Below, piece by piece: positions 42,758 through 48,614 of a DNA stretch of 64,000 nt. The first letter of the stretch is position 1; each line of letters begins with the position of its first letter. Origin of the DNA: Halobellus captivus (GTDB lineage Archaea; Halobacteriota; Halobacteria; Halobacteriales; Haloferacaceae); assembly GCF_003697845.1 (NCBI RefSeq), contig NZ_RDQE01000009.1, forward strand, positions 1 through 64,000, read 5' to 3'. Below the pieces are notes generated by a model. That model made no database searches, was not told the origin of the DNA, and saw nothing but the letters and a program-made list of their open reading frames with translations. The translations under genes were made by a program, and so were the position numbers.

Positions 42758-43675
42758 TCAGTCGGCTCCGTCGATCCGCGCCTCCTCGCCCGCAAGCATC
42801 TCGAGGACCTGCATCACGCCCGAGTTGTCGTCTCGGCCCATGTCGTTCTGGACCATCGACTTGTACAGTTCGTGGGCGAGTTCGGTCTGGGGCATCGGCG
42901 AGCCGAACGTCTCGCCGGCGTCCGTCGCGATCCGGAGGTCCTTGTACTGGTACTCCGCGAAGAAGCCCGGGTCGAAGTCGCCGCGGATCATCGACGGGGC
43001 GCGGTTGTCGAGCGTCCAACAGCCGGCCGCGCCGCCGCTTATCGCGTCCACGACGGCCTCGAGGTTCGCGCCCGCGTTGTGTGCGAACACCAGCGCCTCG
43101 CTCACCCCGACCATCTGGGCGGCGACGACGATCTGGTTACACGCCTTCGTCGTCTGGCCGGCCCCGCTCGGCCCGCAGTGCGTCACCGTCTCGCCCATGA
43201 CCTCGAGGGCGTCCGCGTGCTCCGCGAGGACGTCCTCGTCGCCGCCGACCATGATCGAGAGCGTCCCCTCGATCGCGCCCGACTCGCCGCCCGAGATCGG
43301 CGCGTCGAGGGCGTCGACCCCCTCCTCCGCGAGGCGTTCGGCGACCGCTTCCGCGACCGTCGGCGAGATCGTCGAGTGATCGACGACCGTCATCCCCGCG
43401 CTCACGCCGTCGATCACCGGGTCGGGCTCGCCGTCCTCGCCGAGCACGACGTCCGCCACGGCCGGCGAGTCGGGAAGACACAGGAAGACGACGTCGCTCC
43501 GCTCGGCGACGCCCGCGGGCGATCCGCCGTCCTCGCCGCCGTGTTCCACGAGCTCGTCGACCGGCTCGTCCGAGCGGTTGTGCCCGACGACGTCGTACCC
43601 CGCGTCGAGAAGGTTCTTCGCCATCGGCAGGCCCATGATCCCGAGTCCGACGAATCCGGCTGTTGCTGTCGGCAT
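42758..43675 (-). CDS. 3-hydroxyisobutyrate dehydrogenase family oxidoreductase
   Basis: 305 residues. NAD(P)-dependent oxidation of a beta-hydroxyacid (3-hydroxyisobutyrate or tartronate semialdehyde). Rossmann motif 'GFVGLGIMGLPMAKNLL', substrate motif 'DAPISGGESGAIEGTLSIMVGG' and catalytic Lys in 'AGQTTKACNQIVVA' with the typical 'YKDLRIATDAG' C-terminal segment. MmsB-type and GarR-type enzymes share these; context does not decide. ATG 43675 is the natural start; the longer frame is a shadow. It lies 50 bases after the unknown repeat protein stop, on the same strand. Confidence 0.9.
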   Translation of the reverse strand: MPTATAGFVGLGIMGLPMAKNLLDAGYDVVGHNRSDEPVDELVEHGGEDGGSPAGVAERSDVVFLCLPDSPAVADVVLGEDGEPDPVIDGVSAGMTVVDHSTISPTVAEAVAERLAEEGVDALDAPISGGESGAIEGTLSIMVGGDEDVLAEHADALEVMGETVTHCGPSGAGQTTKACNQIVVAAQMVGVSEALVFAHNAGANLEAVVDAISGGAAGCWTLDNRAPSMIRGDFDPGFFAEYQYKDLRIATDAGETFGSPMPQTELAHELYKSMVQNDMGRDDNSGVMQVLEMLAGEEARIDGAD

Positions 43676-43725: not shown

Positions 43726-44469
43726 CTACATCGAGACCGTCGCGAGGTCGCTTTCGAGCCCCTCCACGAACTCGTTGTACGCCTCGACGAAGCCCGCGAA
43801 CGGCTCGGCGTACTCGCGGACGTCGGCCGCCGAGGGGGCCCCGTACTGCGAGAGGAGATAGAGGCCGCCGGACCCGCCGACGCGGAGGTACGAGACCGTC
43901 CCCTCCTCCCACTTGAGCTCCCAGCGGTCGCCGTCGACGCGGGCGGTGAACGTCCCGTAGTCGTCGCCCTCGTACCGGTACACCTCGCCGGCGATGACGC
44001 CGCAGGTCTCGCGGATCGAGTCGAGCACCCGGTCACGCTCGGCGACGACGCCGTCGGTCGAGGCGGGCTCCGGGAACTCCGCGGAGACGCCGTCGAGCAC
44101 GCCCGAAAGCGAGCCGACGTACGCGTTCCAGGCGGACACCATGTTCGGGTAGTCCGCCAGCGCGGTCGCCAACCCCGAGGGATCGGGCGGCTGTTTCGTC
44201 GAGACGACGTAGGTGTCGGAGCCGCTCTTCGGCGAGAAGCGGAGGAACTCCAGCTCGCCGGCCTCGTGTTTGACGGTCCACTCGCCGCCCGCCGTCGACA
44301 GCGCCGTTCGGCCGTAGTCGCCGCCCTGGAGCTTCGCGAGCCGGTAGGCGATCCCGCCGGCGTGGTCGCGGACGGCCGCGACCAGCTCGTCGCGTCGGTC
44401 GGCCACCGCCTCGACGTCGGACACGTCGAGGTCGATGCCGAGCCCGGAAGTCTCGGAAGGGGAACTCAC
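43726..44469 (-). CDS. Unknown protein built of two internal repeats
   Basis: 247 residues, not recognised. Two copies of one unit of about 100 residues: repeat 1 at 25-128 and repeat 2 at 145-242. Matching blocks are GGDYG (49) with GDDYG (168), EWTVKHEAGELEFLR (63) with RWELKWEEGTVSYLR (182), and WNAYVGSL (114) with YNEFVEGL (231). Each unit starts with a helix, has antiparallel strands and ends in a helix, so a pseudo-dimeric fold is likely. I start it at GTG 44469, with gttaacg about 30 bases upstream. Neighbours are a FtsZ-like gene (104 bases upstream) and a dehydrogenase (50 bases downstream). No signal or membrane segment. Confidence 0.75.
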   Translation of the reverse strand: MSSPSETSGLGIDLDVSDVEAVADRRDELVAAVRDHAGGIAYRLAKLQGGDYGRTALSTAGGEWTVKHEAGELEFLRFSPKSGSDTYVVSTKQPPDPSGLATALADYPNMVSAWNAYVGSLSGVLDGVSAEFPEPASTDGVVAERDRVLDSIRETCGVIAGEVYRYEGDDYGTFTARVDGDRWELKWEEGTVSYLRVGGSGGLYLLSQYGAPSAADVREYAEPFAGFVEAYNEFVEGLESDLATVSM

Positions 44470-44572
44470 GTCCGGAACCGGGCGACGAACGACGTTAACC
44501 GGTTCGGTCGGGGACGGTCGGGAGCGACCGGTTCGGTCGCGGGCTACCGGAACCGATCGATTCGGCCGGAAG

Positions 44573-45736
44573 TCATTCGCCCCCACCGGGGATCGACTCG
44601 CGGATCTCGCGTATCCGTCTCGGCTCGTCGATCCCCGACCGGAGCACGAGCGCGAACACCTCCTCGCCGTCGGGGACGGGCGCGTCCCCGCTCAGGATCG
44701 CCCCCGAGCCGGTCTCCTCGGCGAGCCACCGCCGACCGTCGGCGATCGCCTCGCGATTGAGCCAGGCGGGCGGACCGCCGACGACGAGCAGGGTTCGGTC
44801 GGCACGTCCCTCGGGCACCTCGACCGTGTTCTTTCCGCGGGTCGCCTTCCGGATCACCGTCTCGACGGCCGACACCGCGGCGCTCGCGTCCACCTTCTCC
44901 GGCTCCGAGGAACCGAACAGACCCAGACCGAACCGCGACTCGGTTTCCGGGGGTTCGACCGCCTGCGTCGCGTACCCCAGCGCCGCGACGTCGCCCTCGT
45001 CGCCGACCGCCCGAGCGATATCGCTCGCGTCGAGCACCTGCTGAGGCGTGACGGCGTCGGCGTCGCTCTCGCCCGCCCCGAAAAGCGCCGCGATCCGATC
45101 GGCGACGATCCCGTTCAGTCGGTCGCGGGCGTCCGCGATCGTCTCGCCCGGGCGCAGCCACGCGTCGGTGTCGAAGGGGATGACCGCGGCCGTCCGCTCC
45201 GAGAGCGCCCCGAGCGTTCGAGCCGCGTTCCGCTCCGCGAGCGGTCGTCGCGGGCTCGATCCGTCGTTCGGTCGCGACCCGCCGTCGCCGCCGTCCTTCG
45301 AGCTCGACTCGGCGTCGCTCTCGGCGGGCGTCGGAAGGATCGCGACCGAGTACACCGGCGCGTCGTACAGCGTTTCGATCTCCGCGGCGAGCGCGGGGGC
45401 GACCCCGCCGCCGGCGGCGCCGCCGACGCCGACGACGAGAACGAACGCCTCCGCGAGCGACGGGCGCTGGTCGTCGAGGGCGCGGCCGAGCTCGCTCGCG
45501 TGGACCTCCCCGAGCTCCCGGCCCGCGTGGAGGTCGCCGTCGAGCCCGTCACCGCCCGCGGCGTCTCCGAACCGATATCGCCGGTCCTCGCCGATCGACT
45601 CGAGGCGGTCGAGCGCCTCCATGTCCGTGTCGAACGCGGAGACGCCGTGGAGGAATCGGTCTCCGTCGCGTTCGGCCGTGAGCCGGTCGACGATCCGCCC
45701 GCCCGCCCCGCCGAGGCCGATGACGTGTACGCGCAT
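44573..45736 (-). CDS. Noncanonical FtsZ/tubulin family protein
   Basis: 387 residues. N-terminal 'MRVHVIGLGGAGGRIVDRL' is the first GTP-binding strand-loop of FtsZ/CetZ. The tubulin signature, normally GGGTGTG, appears as 'VGGAAGGGVAP' (about residues 104-114), lacking the usual Thr. 'ALPTP'-like 'VAILPTPAE' follows, but an acidic insert occurs near 145-165. The C-terminal region ('LLVVGGPPAWLNREAI') still looks like the FtsZ second domain. It cannot be judged whether GTP is hydrolysed. Haloarchaea have FtsZ1, FtsZ2, several CetZ and at least one divergent member, to which this may belong. ATG 45736. Downstream, about 104 bases away, is the repeat protein. Confidence 0.85.
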   Translation of the reverse strand: MRVHVIGLGGAGGRIVDRLTAERDGDRFLHGVSAFDTDMEALDRLESIGEDRRYRFGDAAGGDGLDGDLHAGRELGEVHASELGRALDDQRPSLAEAFVLVVGVGGAAGGGVAPALAAEIETLYDAPVYSVAILPTPAESDAESSSKDGGDGGSRPNDGSSPRRPLAERNAARTLGALSERTAAVIPFDTDAWLRPGETIADARDRLNGIVADRIAALFGAGESDADAVTPQQVLDASDIARAVGDEGDVAALGYATQAVEPPETESRFGLGLFGSSEPEKVDASAAVSAVETVIRKATRGKNTVEVPEGRADRTLLVVGGPPAWLNREAIADGRRWLAEETGSGAILSGDAPVPDGEEVFALVLRSGIDEPRRIREIRESIPGGGE

Positions 45737-45763: not shown

Positions 45764-46972
45764 TTATCGTCTTCGGCCGGTCGCGGAGCGGTCGCCCGGG
45801 ACGCCGGGCCAGTTGTCGTCGTCATCGGGACCCGACGTGCCGCCCCCGTCGTCGCCGGGGACCGTCCACTCGAACTCGTCGAGGCGGCACTGTCCGTCGG
45901 GGAGCCGTTCGGCGGGATCCGGCTCCACGCCGAGCAGGCGGGGCAACGCGGTGTCCGCGAACGTCAGGACGAGCACCAACACGATCGGCGCGAGGAACAG
46001 TCCGTGAAAGCCGAACACGACCGGGCCGAAGATGTACGCGAGCATCAACAGCCCGACGTGCGTCGTCTTCCCGCTGAAGTACGGCCGCAACACGATGTCG
46101 GGGATCGTGTCGACGACGACGACCGCCACGAGGAGGAACCCGACGACGTACACCAACAGTCCGGTGTCGTTTCCCATGACCGCCGGAACGGCGGTCGCCG
46201 CGGCCAAAGGGAGGTAGACGACCTTCATTCCGATGACCGGTATCAGGCTCGCGACACCCGTGAGCGCGCCCGCGAGCGTCGGGTACGGAACCGCGACGGC
46301 GTCGGGTGCGACCACGTTGTAGCCGGTGTACGTCGCGATCGCGATGATCGATATCGCGATGACGTTGAGGAGGTTTCCGTACAGCACCGCCTCGAGCTCC
46401 GCGTCGGCCGCCTCGAAGTACTCGCGGACGATCGCGTCGTCGTCGAACCGGAGCACCCACTCGTGGAACTTCGAGCCGTCGAGGAGCAGGTAGTAGGTGA
46501 CCACGACGGTGATGAGCAGGTTGAGGAGCAGCCCGGACACCGTGTTCGTCAACAGCGCGGCGTTGTCGACGAGGAAGTCGATCAACGGGTCGAACTGCCC
46601 CGACTGATACGCCTCGATGACGTTCCCGACGGAGAGGTTCGAAAGCTCCGTCAGGCGCTGTAGCCACTGGTTTCCCGATCCGAGCGTCTCGGCGAGCGGG
46701 AACTCCTCGATGAATCGCCGCATCTCGACCACCAACAGCACCACGGCCGAACTCAAGAGCAGTATGAGCGGGACGGCGATCACCGAGAGGGCCGTCACCG
46801 CCCGGACTCGCGCGGGGAGCCGCAGCCGTTCGAGGTCGTGGTAGAACCGCCGAGTGGAGTAATAGAGGAAGACGGAGACGGTGAGGGCGGCGACGAACCG
46901 ATAGGCGATGTAGCCGGCGATCAGCGAGACCGTGAGACCGAAGAGGGCGACGACGAAGCGCTTCTCGTCCAT
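45764..46972 (-). CDS. AI-2E family transporter
   Basis: 402 residues, about eight membrane helices in the typical order ('LFGLTVSLIAGYIAYRFVAAL' first, 'LLLNLLITVVVTYYLLLDG' region, 'GALTGVASLIPVIGMKVVYLP', 'IFGPVVFGFHGLFLAPIVLVLV'), ending in an acidic cytoplasmic tail. Family proteins export or import small solutes or Na+; the AI-2 role of E. coli TqsA need not apply. ATG 46972. It lies 27 bases upstream of the FtsZ-like ATG region in the same direction, so the two may be co-transcribed. Confidence 0.93.
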   Translation of the reverse strand: MDEKRFVVALFGLTVSLIAGYIAYRFVAALTVSVFLYYSTRRFYHDLERLRLPARVRAVTALSVIAVPLILLLSSAVVLLVVEMRRFIEEFPLAETLGSGNQWLQRLTELSNLSVGNVIEAYQSGQFDPLIDFLVDNAALLTNTVSGLLLNLLITVVVTYYLLLDGSKFHEWVLRFDDDAIVREYFEAADAELEAVLYGNLLNVIAISIIAIATYTGYNVVAPDAVAVPYPTLAGALTGVASLIPVIGMKVVYLPLAAATAVPAVMGNDTGLLVYVVGFLLVAVVVVDTIPDIVLRPYFSGKTTHVGLLMLAYIFGPVVFGFHGLFLAPIVLVLVLTFADTALPRLLGVEPDPAERLPDGQCRLDEFEWTVPGDDGGGTSGPDDDDNWPGVPGDRSATGRRR

Positions 46973-48118: not shown

Positions 48119-48218
48119 CGTCCGGGCGATATCGGCCGAGTCGCTAAACTCTGTCCCTCCGGTCGCAAAACGACGGGAGACCCACACGCTCATGTATCCC
48201 ACCGACGTATGTGGTGGC

Positions 48219-48614
48219 ATGTCACAGGCACTCGAAGAACACGCCGAGGCGCTACTCAGCGCGGCGCGGACCGCAACGGGGGACGAGCTGCGGAGCCTCA
48301 CGTACTTCACCGAAGAGGAGGTCGAACAGCTCTACCTGCGGAGCGATCTGAGCCGGACCGCCGACCTCGTCGGGTTCGCCGAGAGCGAACGACACGGGTT
48401 CCACGCGCAGTCGCTGTACGCCAACACGCAGCTCGGGAACTACTTCTTCACCGTCCGGGTGTTCGAGAACGGCTACCTCACCCGGGTGATCGCCAACGGC
48501 CACGGCGTCTGGGTGACGACCGATTCGATGGAGATCGATCGCTTCGAGGAGCTCGCCAGCGCGCTCGCGGAGATCCTCCGCTCGTTCGATCCCGCCGCGA
48601 TCGACGAGGAGTGA
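48219..48614 (+). CDS. Small conserved haloarchaeal protein
   Basis: 131 residues, soluble. Starts 'MSQALEEHAEALLSAARTA', then 'LRSLTYFTEEEVEQLYLRSDL' and beta strands 'NYFFTVRVFENGYLTRVIANG'. The pattern matches a haloarchaeal family of unknown function, from memory, often found in multiple copies. The frame is open from ATG 48192, but the family begins at ATG 48219 as far as I recall. The divergent aglJ shares the upstream region. Confidence 0.78.
   Translation: MSQALEEHAEALLSAARTATGDELRSLTYFTEEEVEQLYLRSDLSRTADLVGFAESERHGFHAQSLYANTQLGNYFFTVRVFENGYLTRVIANGHGVWVTTDSMEIDRFEELASALAEILRSFDPAAIDEE

Follow-up and report, generated by a model that had tools for sequence, protein, structure and literature searches.

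The window analysed here, a stretch of 64,000 nucleotides, carries on its minus strand a gene for a protein made of two related halves, hereafter called the two-unit protein. The first-pass annotation had read this frame as an unrecognised protein with two divergent internal repeats, lying next to a divergent FtsZ-like gene and an AI-2E-family transporter gene on the same strand. The frame is genuine, with intact orthologues across Halobacteriales, and both neighbours are as claimed: one is a CetZ-family tubulin homologue (CetZ_C 2e-37, Tubulin 3.9e-14) and the other an AI-2E-family membrane protein (2.4e-30). The features of the locus are the following:

43726..44469, minus strand: gene of the two-unit protein (P0001, 247 aa), with a GTG start at 44469, a stop at 43726 and intact orthologues in Halobacteriales
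44080..44418, minus strand: N-terminal unit (residues ~18-130), predicted helix-beta4-helix
43729..44064, minus strand: C-terminal unit (residues 136-247), predicted helix-beta4-helix (AlphaFold model of this unit alone, from an alignment that included both unit types: pLDDT 91.9, pTM 0.84)
44495..44506, minus strand: CGAAC..GTTAA box, probable BRE/TATA of a leaderless transcript, 29 nt before the GTG
44573..45736, minus strand: CetZ-like neighbour gene (tubulin/FtsZ superfamily), adjoining the two-unit gene in Halorubrum only
45764..46972, minus strand: neighbour gene of an AI-2E-family membrane protein, adjoining only in Halorubrum

The two-unit protein is acidic (pI 4.3, 42 D+E vs 19 K+R), contains no transmembrane segment and no hydrophobic 19-mer, and is, judging from its sequence, soluble. 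It was rightly called unrecognised, as it matches no model of Pfam, NCBIfam, PHROG or PADLOC, and a well-characterised family looked for in these four libraries gave 0 families. Its 39 orthologues give scattered weak Pfam matches only (best E 0.0011), among them FliD_C in 20 members, MIT1 chromo in 14, DUF7310 in 9 and DinB_2 in 9, all below a useful threshold; a 6xi1 flagellin-hook match (E 0.0027) covers 24 positions and is too short. The window also encodes a DUF7522 protein (48192-48614, plus strand, E 1.8e-48), next to a glycosyltransferase and to a protein with a PhoU/MazE-type domain. DUF7522 is likewise a haloarchaeal family, with a model of ~118 positions, and a relation between the two was rejected (hhalign probability 0.5%, 4 columns). 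No published description of the two-unit protein was found in the open-access literature.

At E<1e-50, the full-length protein has orthologues in 118 of 195 Halobacteriales genomes; the count rises to 120/195 at E<=0.01, G046 and G063 being chance matches among these. A profile of one unit alone matches 154 of 243 Halobacteriales genomes and, in the window's own genome, finds the two-unit gene alone. Full-length matches are confined to Halobacteriales in a profile search of 294 genomes of the phylum, and a deeper search of 20 genomes lacking the gene gave nothing better than E 0.57. Several candidate distant relatives, namely G063 (E 0.0026/0.006), G046 (E 0.005), G011 (E 0.025) and a second match in G067 (E 0.001), were dismissed as chance, their in-frame matches being short or out of context; a match in the window's genome (C1:205368, E 0.038) lies within an alpha/beta-hydrolase-like protein and was also taken as chance. 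No relatives were found in viral and phage collections, and a viral or phage origin was rejected, the viral contigs giving one pattern match without a relative and the phages none. Named genera with the gene include Halorubrum, Halorarius, Haladaptatus, Halolamina, Natronomonas, Halosegnis, Halosimplex, Saliphagus and Halohasta, and the gene is usually single-copy and strongly conserved. All 15 Halorubrum genomes of the sample carry it; for one species of this genus, Halorubrum lacusprofundi, PMC10102395 describes an in-frame deletion system. The Halobaculum copies are plasmid-borne: the gene is present in all 7 plasmid records found, each time as a 'hypothetical protein'. These plasmids are large (250-490 kb), and in three of the plasmid loci (L144-L146) a conserved hypothetical gene of 75 residues is located just upstream, the same small gene occurring in 4 loci in all, the fourth being L090. 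The two-unit protein thus represents a genuine, uncatalogued family specific to Halobacteriales, a widely kept and conserved protein of one archaeal order that the profile libraries do not name.

The two divergent internal repeats were confirmed by three comparisons. The N and C halves are 27% identical over 110 columns in BLASTP (45.8 bits, E=2e-12), their Smith-Waterman score of 121 was reached by 0 of 2000 shuffles (28.9+-5.1), and the profiles of the two halves, built from the 39 orthologues, align with an hhalign probability of 99.6% (E=8.6e-25). The unit is somewhat longer than first proposed, ~110 residues instead of ~100, and the blocks common to both units are R, YG, W..K, L, G, Y, S, P, V, V and L. 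Their spacing, which had been described as identical, is not so overall, as the LR and YN blocks are set apart by a 2-residue gap in the half-versus-half alignment. The split between N and C units has a support of 1.0 in a tree built from 23 units of each type, and identity among these units is 46-97% within a type vs 21-42% between types. The N|C split and the higher identity within types imply a single duplication before the radiation of the family. Exactly two matches to the unit profile were found in 151 of the 154 positive genomes, the exceptions being G119 and G143, with three each, and G181, whose four matches correspond to two gene copies. The third match in G119 and G143 is likely caused by an insertion in a loop of the C unit, which is evident in the split match of G143 and in a relative, L098. 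In this last sequence (from G075), the insertion is Gly/Ser-rich and lies between strands 1 and 2 of the C unit; the split or extra matches of G143 and G119 agree with an insertion of this kind. No single-unit relative was found with the unit profile in the Halobacteriales genomes. At the level of sequence, the family is thus shown to go back to one ancient tandem duplication of a ~110-residue unit, the pair having always been kept.

AlphaFold predicts a helix, four strands and a helix for each unit, in which two long helices would flank an antiparallel sheet of four strands. The whole chain is modelled with a pLDDT of 87.4 and a pTM of 0.50, a value at which the model does not fix the mutual arrangement of the two units. 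In strand 2 of both units, hydrophobic residues (W, V/L) on one face alternate with near-invariant polar ones on the other, made up of T65, K67 and E69 in unit N and of R182, E184, K186 and E188 in unit C, where R196 is also near-invariant and polar; we infer which face of the sheet would be open. This polar face mixes acidic and basic residues. The 46 invariant columns comprise 7 K/R, 1 His and 1 acidic position, but this basic bias is weaker once D/E exchange is allowed (7 all-basic vs 4 all-acidic columns). Residues that are strictly invariant and shared by the two units (YG, W, L, G, Y, S) are mostly structural, and the conserved residues include no His/Asp/Cys set that recurs in both units and points to catalysis. 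Foldseek searches of the PDB with the whole-chain and unit models returned no match at E<=0.001, and the VIA fold search gave no Z of 5 or more for either, a Z under 8 being noise level by the tool's own yardstick.

Two lines of evidence bear on the transcription of the gene. The CGAAC..GTTAAC box found 29 nt before the GTG in the window aligns across Halorubrum and is replaced by ..GTTATCC.. outside this genus; we take this box to be the probable BRE/TATA of a leaderless haloarchaeal promoter. More generally, 78 of 95 loci have a TTAN box at 24-32 nt before a possible start, vs 11% in shifted control windows, although these loci, like the set of 59 considered below, include at least one duplicate (L068 and L102 are the same contig) and are related by descent, so that the counts are not independent. 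The conservation of a promoter box of its own argues that the two-unit gene is its own transcription unit, and there may be read-through from the CetZ-like gene.

The first-pass annotation also suggested that the gene may belong, with its two neighbours, to a membrane or cell-shape module. At least for Halorubrum, this proposal draws on a clear same-strand adjacency: the CetZ-like gene is directly upstream of the two-unit gene in 34 of 37 loci of this genus, and it is preceded by the AI-2E gene wherever the sequence extends far enough. Moreover, CetZ proteins have roles in cell shape and motility, according to PMC11621097; the term 'AI-2E' is absent from a CetZ survey (PMC9856176). However, the arrangement already fails in three Halorubrum loci (L036, L062 and L064), and its conservation breaks down beyond the genus, where none of 57 loci has a CetZ-like gene within 5 kb and five have a distant CetZ match 6-8 kb off on the opposite strand. 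The two genes are also present or absent independently: a CetZ-like gene at E<=1e-50 occurs in 47 of 243 genomes, 37 with and 10 without the two-unit gene, and 117 of the 154 genomes carrying the two-unit gene lack it. Outside Halorubrum, 22 genomes have both genes, and in the 11 of these whose positions could be read by eye, the two are far apart or on different contigs. With a promoter of its own and a product lacking any membrane segment, the two-unit gene is very unlikely to act in such a module; the CetZ-like gene is therefore not counted among the parts of the two-unit system, and a CetZ linkage in one genus should not count as a cytoskeletal module. Two further observations concern these loci. 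The CetZ-family gene of the window is indeed divergent, being the weakest of the four CetZ_C matches of the genome (131 bits vs 217-275), and its relatives at E<=1e-50 are mainly found in Halorubrum and one other family. On the other side, a 3-hydroxyisobutyrate-dehydrogenase-like gene (42758-43666, minus strand) follows the two-unit gene in the window and in 5 of the 37 Halorubrum loci; since it is confined to the closest species, it looks like a recent insertion before purK.

Another neighbourhood recurs elsewhere. In 59 loci, i.e. the non-Halorubrum loci and two Halorubrum loci without a CetZ neighbour, the recurrent neighbours encode NUDIX (22), tgtA (17), arcS (17) and trmY (16), all on the same strand as the two-unit gene except one trmY; tgtA, arcS and trmY are tRNA-modification genes. 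The last three names are those that we assign from Pfam domain sets, the matches of the four neighbours being NUDIX, TGT, TGT_C2/PUA and Methyltrn_RNA_2. In 7 of the 59 loci, the opposite strand carries, upstream, a gene that we take to be purO. L088, L100, L104 and others show a same-strand order NUDIX - tgtA - arcS, often preceded by the two-unit gene and with trmY located upstream. Among the matches listed, 86 of the 118 genomes have a NUDIX position; in 38 of these 86, the NUDIX gene follows downstream, less than 5 kb away and on the same strand, and in 6 it directly adjoins the two-unit gene (centre distance under 800 bp); 41 of the 42 pairs lying within 20 kb are co-oriented. The same-strand linkage to tgtA/arcS/NUDIX spans 7 families, which suggests that it is old, and is not present in Halorubrum. 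It may reflect a shared function or just slow erosion of gene order: NUDIX is found in 231 of 243 genomes and is apart from the two-unit gene in many of them, Halorubrum included, so the tgtA/arcS linkage may be inherited synteny.

Our preferred reading, to which we give a probability of about 0.3, is that the two-unit protein is a stand-alone cytosolic binding protein specific to Halobacteriales, whose conserved sheet face would meet a partner, RNA being the best single guess. Its mode of action could be viewed as follows: the gene would be transcribed from its own promoter, outside any CetZ/AI-2E operon module; the paired units of the product would form a pseudo-symmetric dimer within one chain, in which the helices would cover one side of each sheet; the other side, bearing the near-invariant polar residues T65/K67/E69, R182/E184/K186/E188 and R196, would be the putative binding surface; and its partner would most likely, albeit with low confidence, be RNA or an RNA-containing complex. 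RNA is proposed on account of the tRNA-modification genes, the commonest neighbours outside Halorubrum, while searches against RNA-binding families gave no significant fold or sequence match. A protein partner is as likely as an RNA partner.

The equally tentative alternative is accordingly an adaptor or scaffold whose paired units would bind one or two proteins and no nucleic acid, by way of the sheet face or of the long helices. The tandem duplication, the acidic and soluble nature of the protein, its long helices and the mixed charge of its conserved face are all compatible with this role, as is the presence of the Plk4 cryptic polo boxes, which are tandem protein-binding modules, among the top weak VIA rows (Z 4.0-4.1); but such scores are at noise level (Z under 8), and no gene for a protein partner is recurrently adjacent across families. 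A role as an enzyme, or as the regulator of one, linked to the NUDIX/tRNA-modification cluster and directed at a nucleotide or at a by-product of modified bases, seems unlikely. Outside Halorubrum no neighbour is commoner than NUDIX, which directly adjoins the two-unit gene in the 6 of 86 genomes mentioned above among the matches listed, and the invariant K67, E69, S90, H36 and R196 could line a putative site; yet no catalytic pair recurs among the mostly structural invariants common to both units, and NUDIX is present in nearly all genomes regardless of the two-unit gene. Even without an RNA partner, the two-unit protein defines a clean family that can be used for annotation.

Three known systems share the broad plan of the two-unit protein, and the corresponding rows of the fold searches are leads only, which cannot be called homologues. 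PUR/Whirly proteins have tandem helix-swapped repeats, each composed of a four-stranded sheet followed by a helix, and the PUR repeats intertwine into one domain. The PUR domain of PURA resembles the two-unit protein by its two tandem repeats of this kind, whereas the two-unit protein adds a long helix before each sheet. PURA repeat I-II was the top PDB row of Foldseek for the whole chain (E 0.17, prob 0.13, not significant), and VIA aligned 43-69 residues of the whole chain with PURA (Z 2.2-2.8, not significant), both being at noise level; the PUR sequence profile gave no match in Pfam scans of the two-unit protein or its 39 orthologues. The cryptic polo box of Plk4 also consists of two tandem sheet-plus-helix modules in one chain and was among the best VIA rows, with a Z of 4.0-4.1 for the unit and 4.0 for the whole chain, again at noise level (9-10% identity and an rmsd of 4.1-5.5 A with the unit). 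It is, in contrast, a domain of a eukaryotic kinase, and polo boxes have six strands and one helix.

The third system is SRP9/SRP14, the eukaryotic heterodimer that binds Alu RNA and that is likewise built of two related helix-sheet-helix units. Archaea are not known to possess SRP9/SRP14. According to PMC8230904, each unit of the heterodimer is alpha-beta-beta-beta-alpha, with three strands, and the pair, which has four helices, binds RNA through a surface of its sheet. The two-unit protein differs by its four predicted strands per unit and by its single chain, SRP9 and SRP14 being separate chains. No sequence similarity to SRP9/SRP14 was found, and the VIA scores of the unit against SRP Alu/SRP14 chains are at noise level: 1e8o_C (Z 3.1, rmsd 9.9 A, 69 aligned), 2w9j_B (Z 2.3, rmsd 9.2, 68 aligned) and 4ue5_B (Z 2.2, rmsd 9.8 A, 69 aligned). 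The SRP9/SRP14 units pair into a saddle whose concave sheet is basic; the two-unit protein may or may not share this shape, its conserved face being of mixed charge and its chain modelled with a pTM of 0.50. It is quite unlikely that the two-unit protein is a single-chain RNA-binding saddle, in which fused helix-beta4-helix units would do what SRP9/SRP14 or PUR repeats do as dimers, with tRNA or SRP RNA as a possible target. As SRP9/SRP14 is not known in archaea, such a saddle would be a solution that arose independently or diverged very far, and its fold family would be new. The two-unit protein is a clean if ordinary orphan family; there is a modest chance that its partner is RNA and that it represents a new RNA-binding architecture in archaea.
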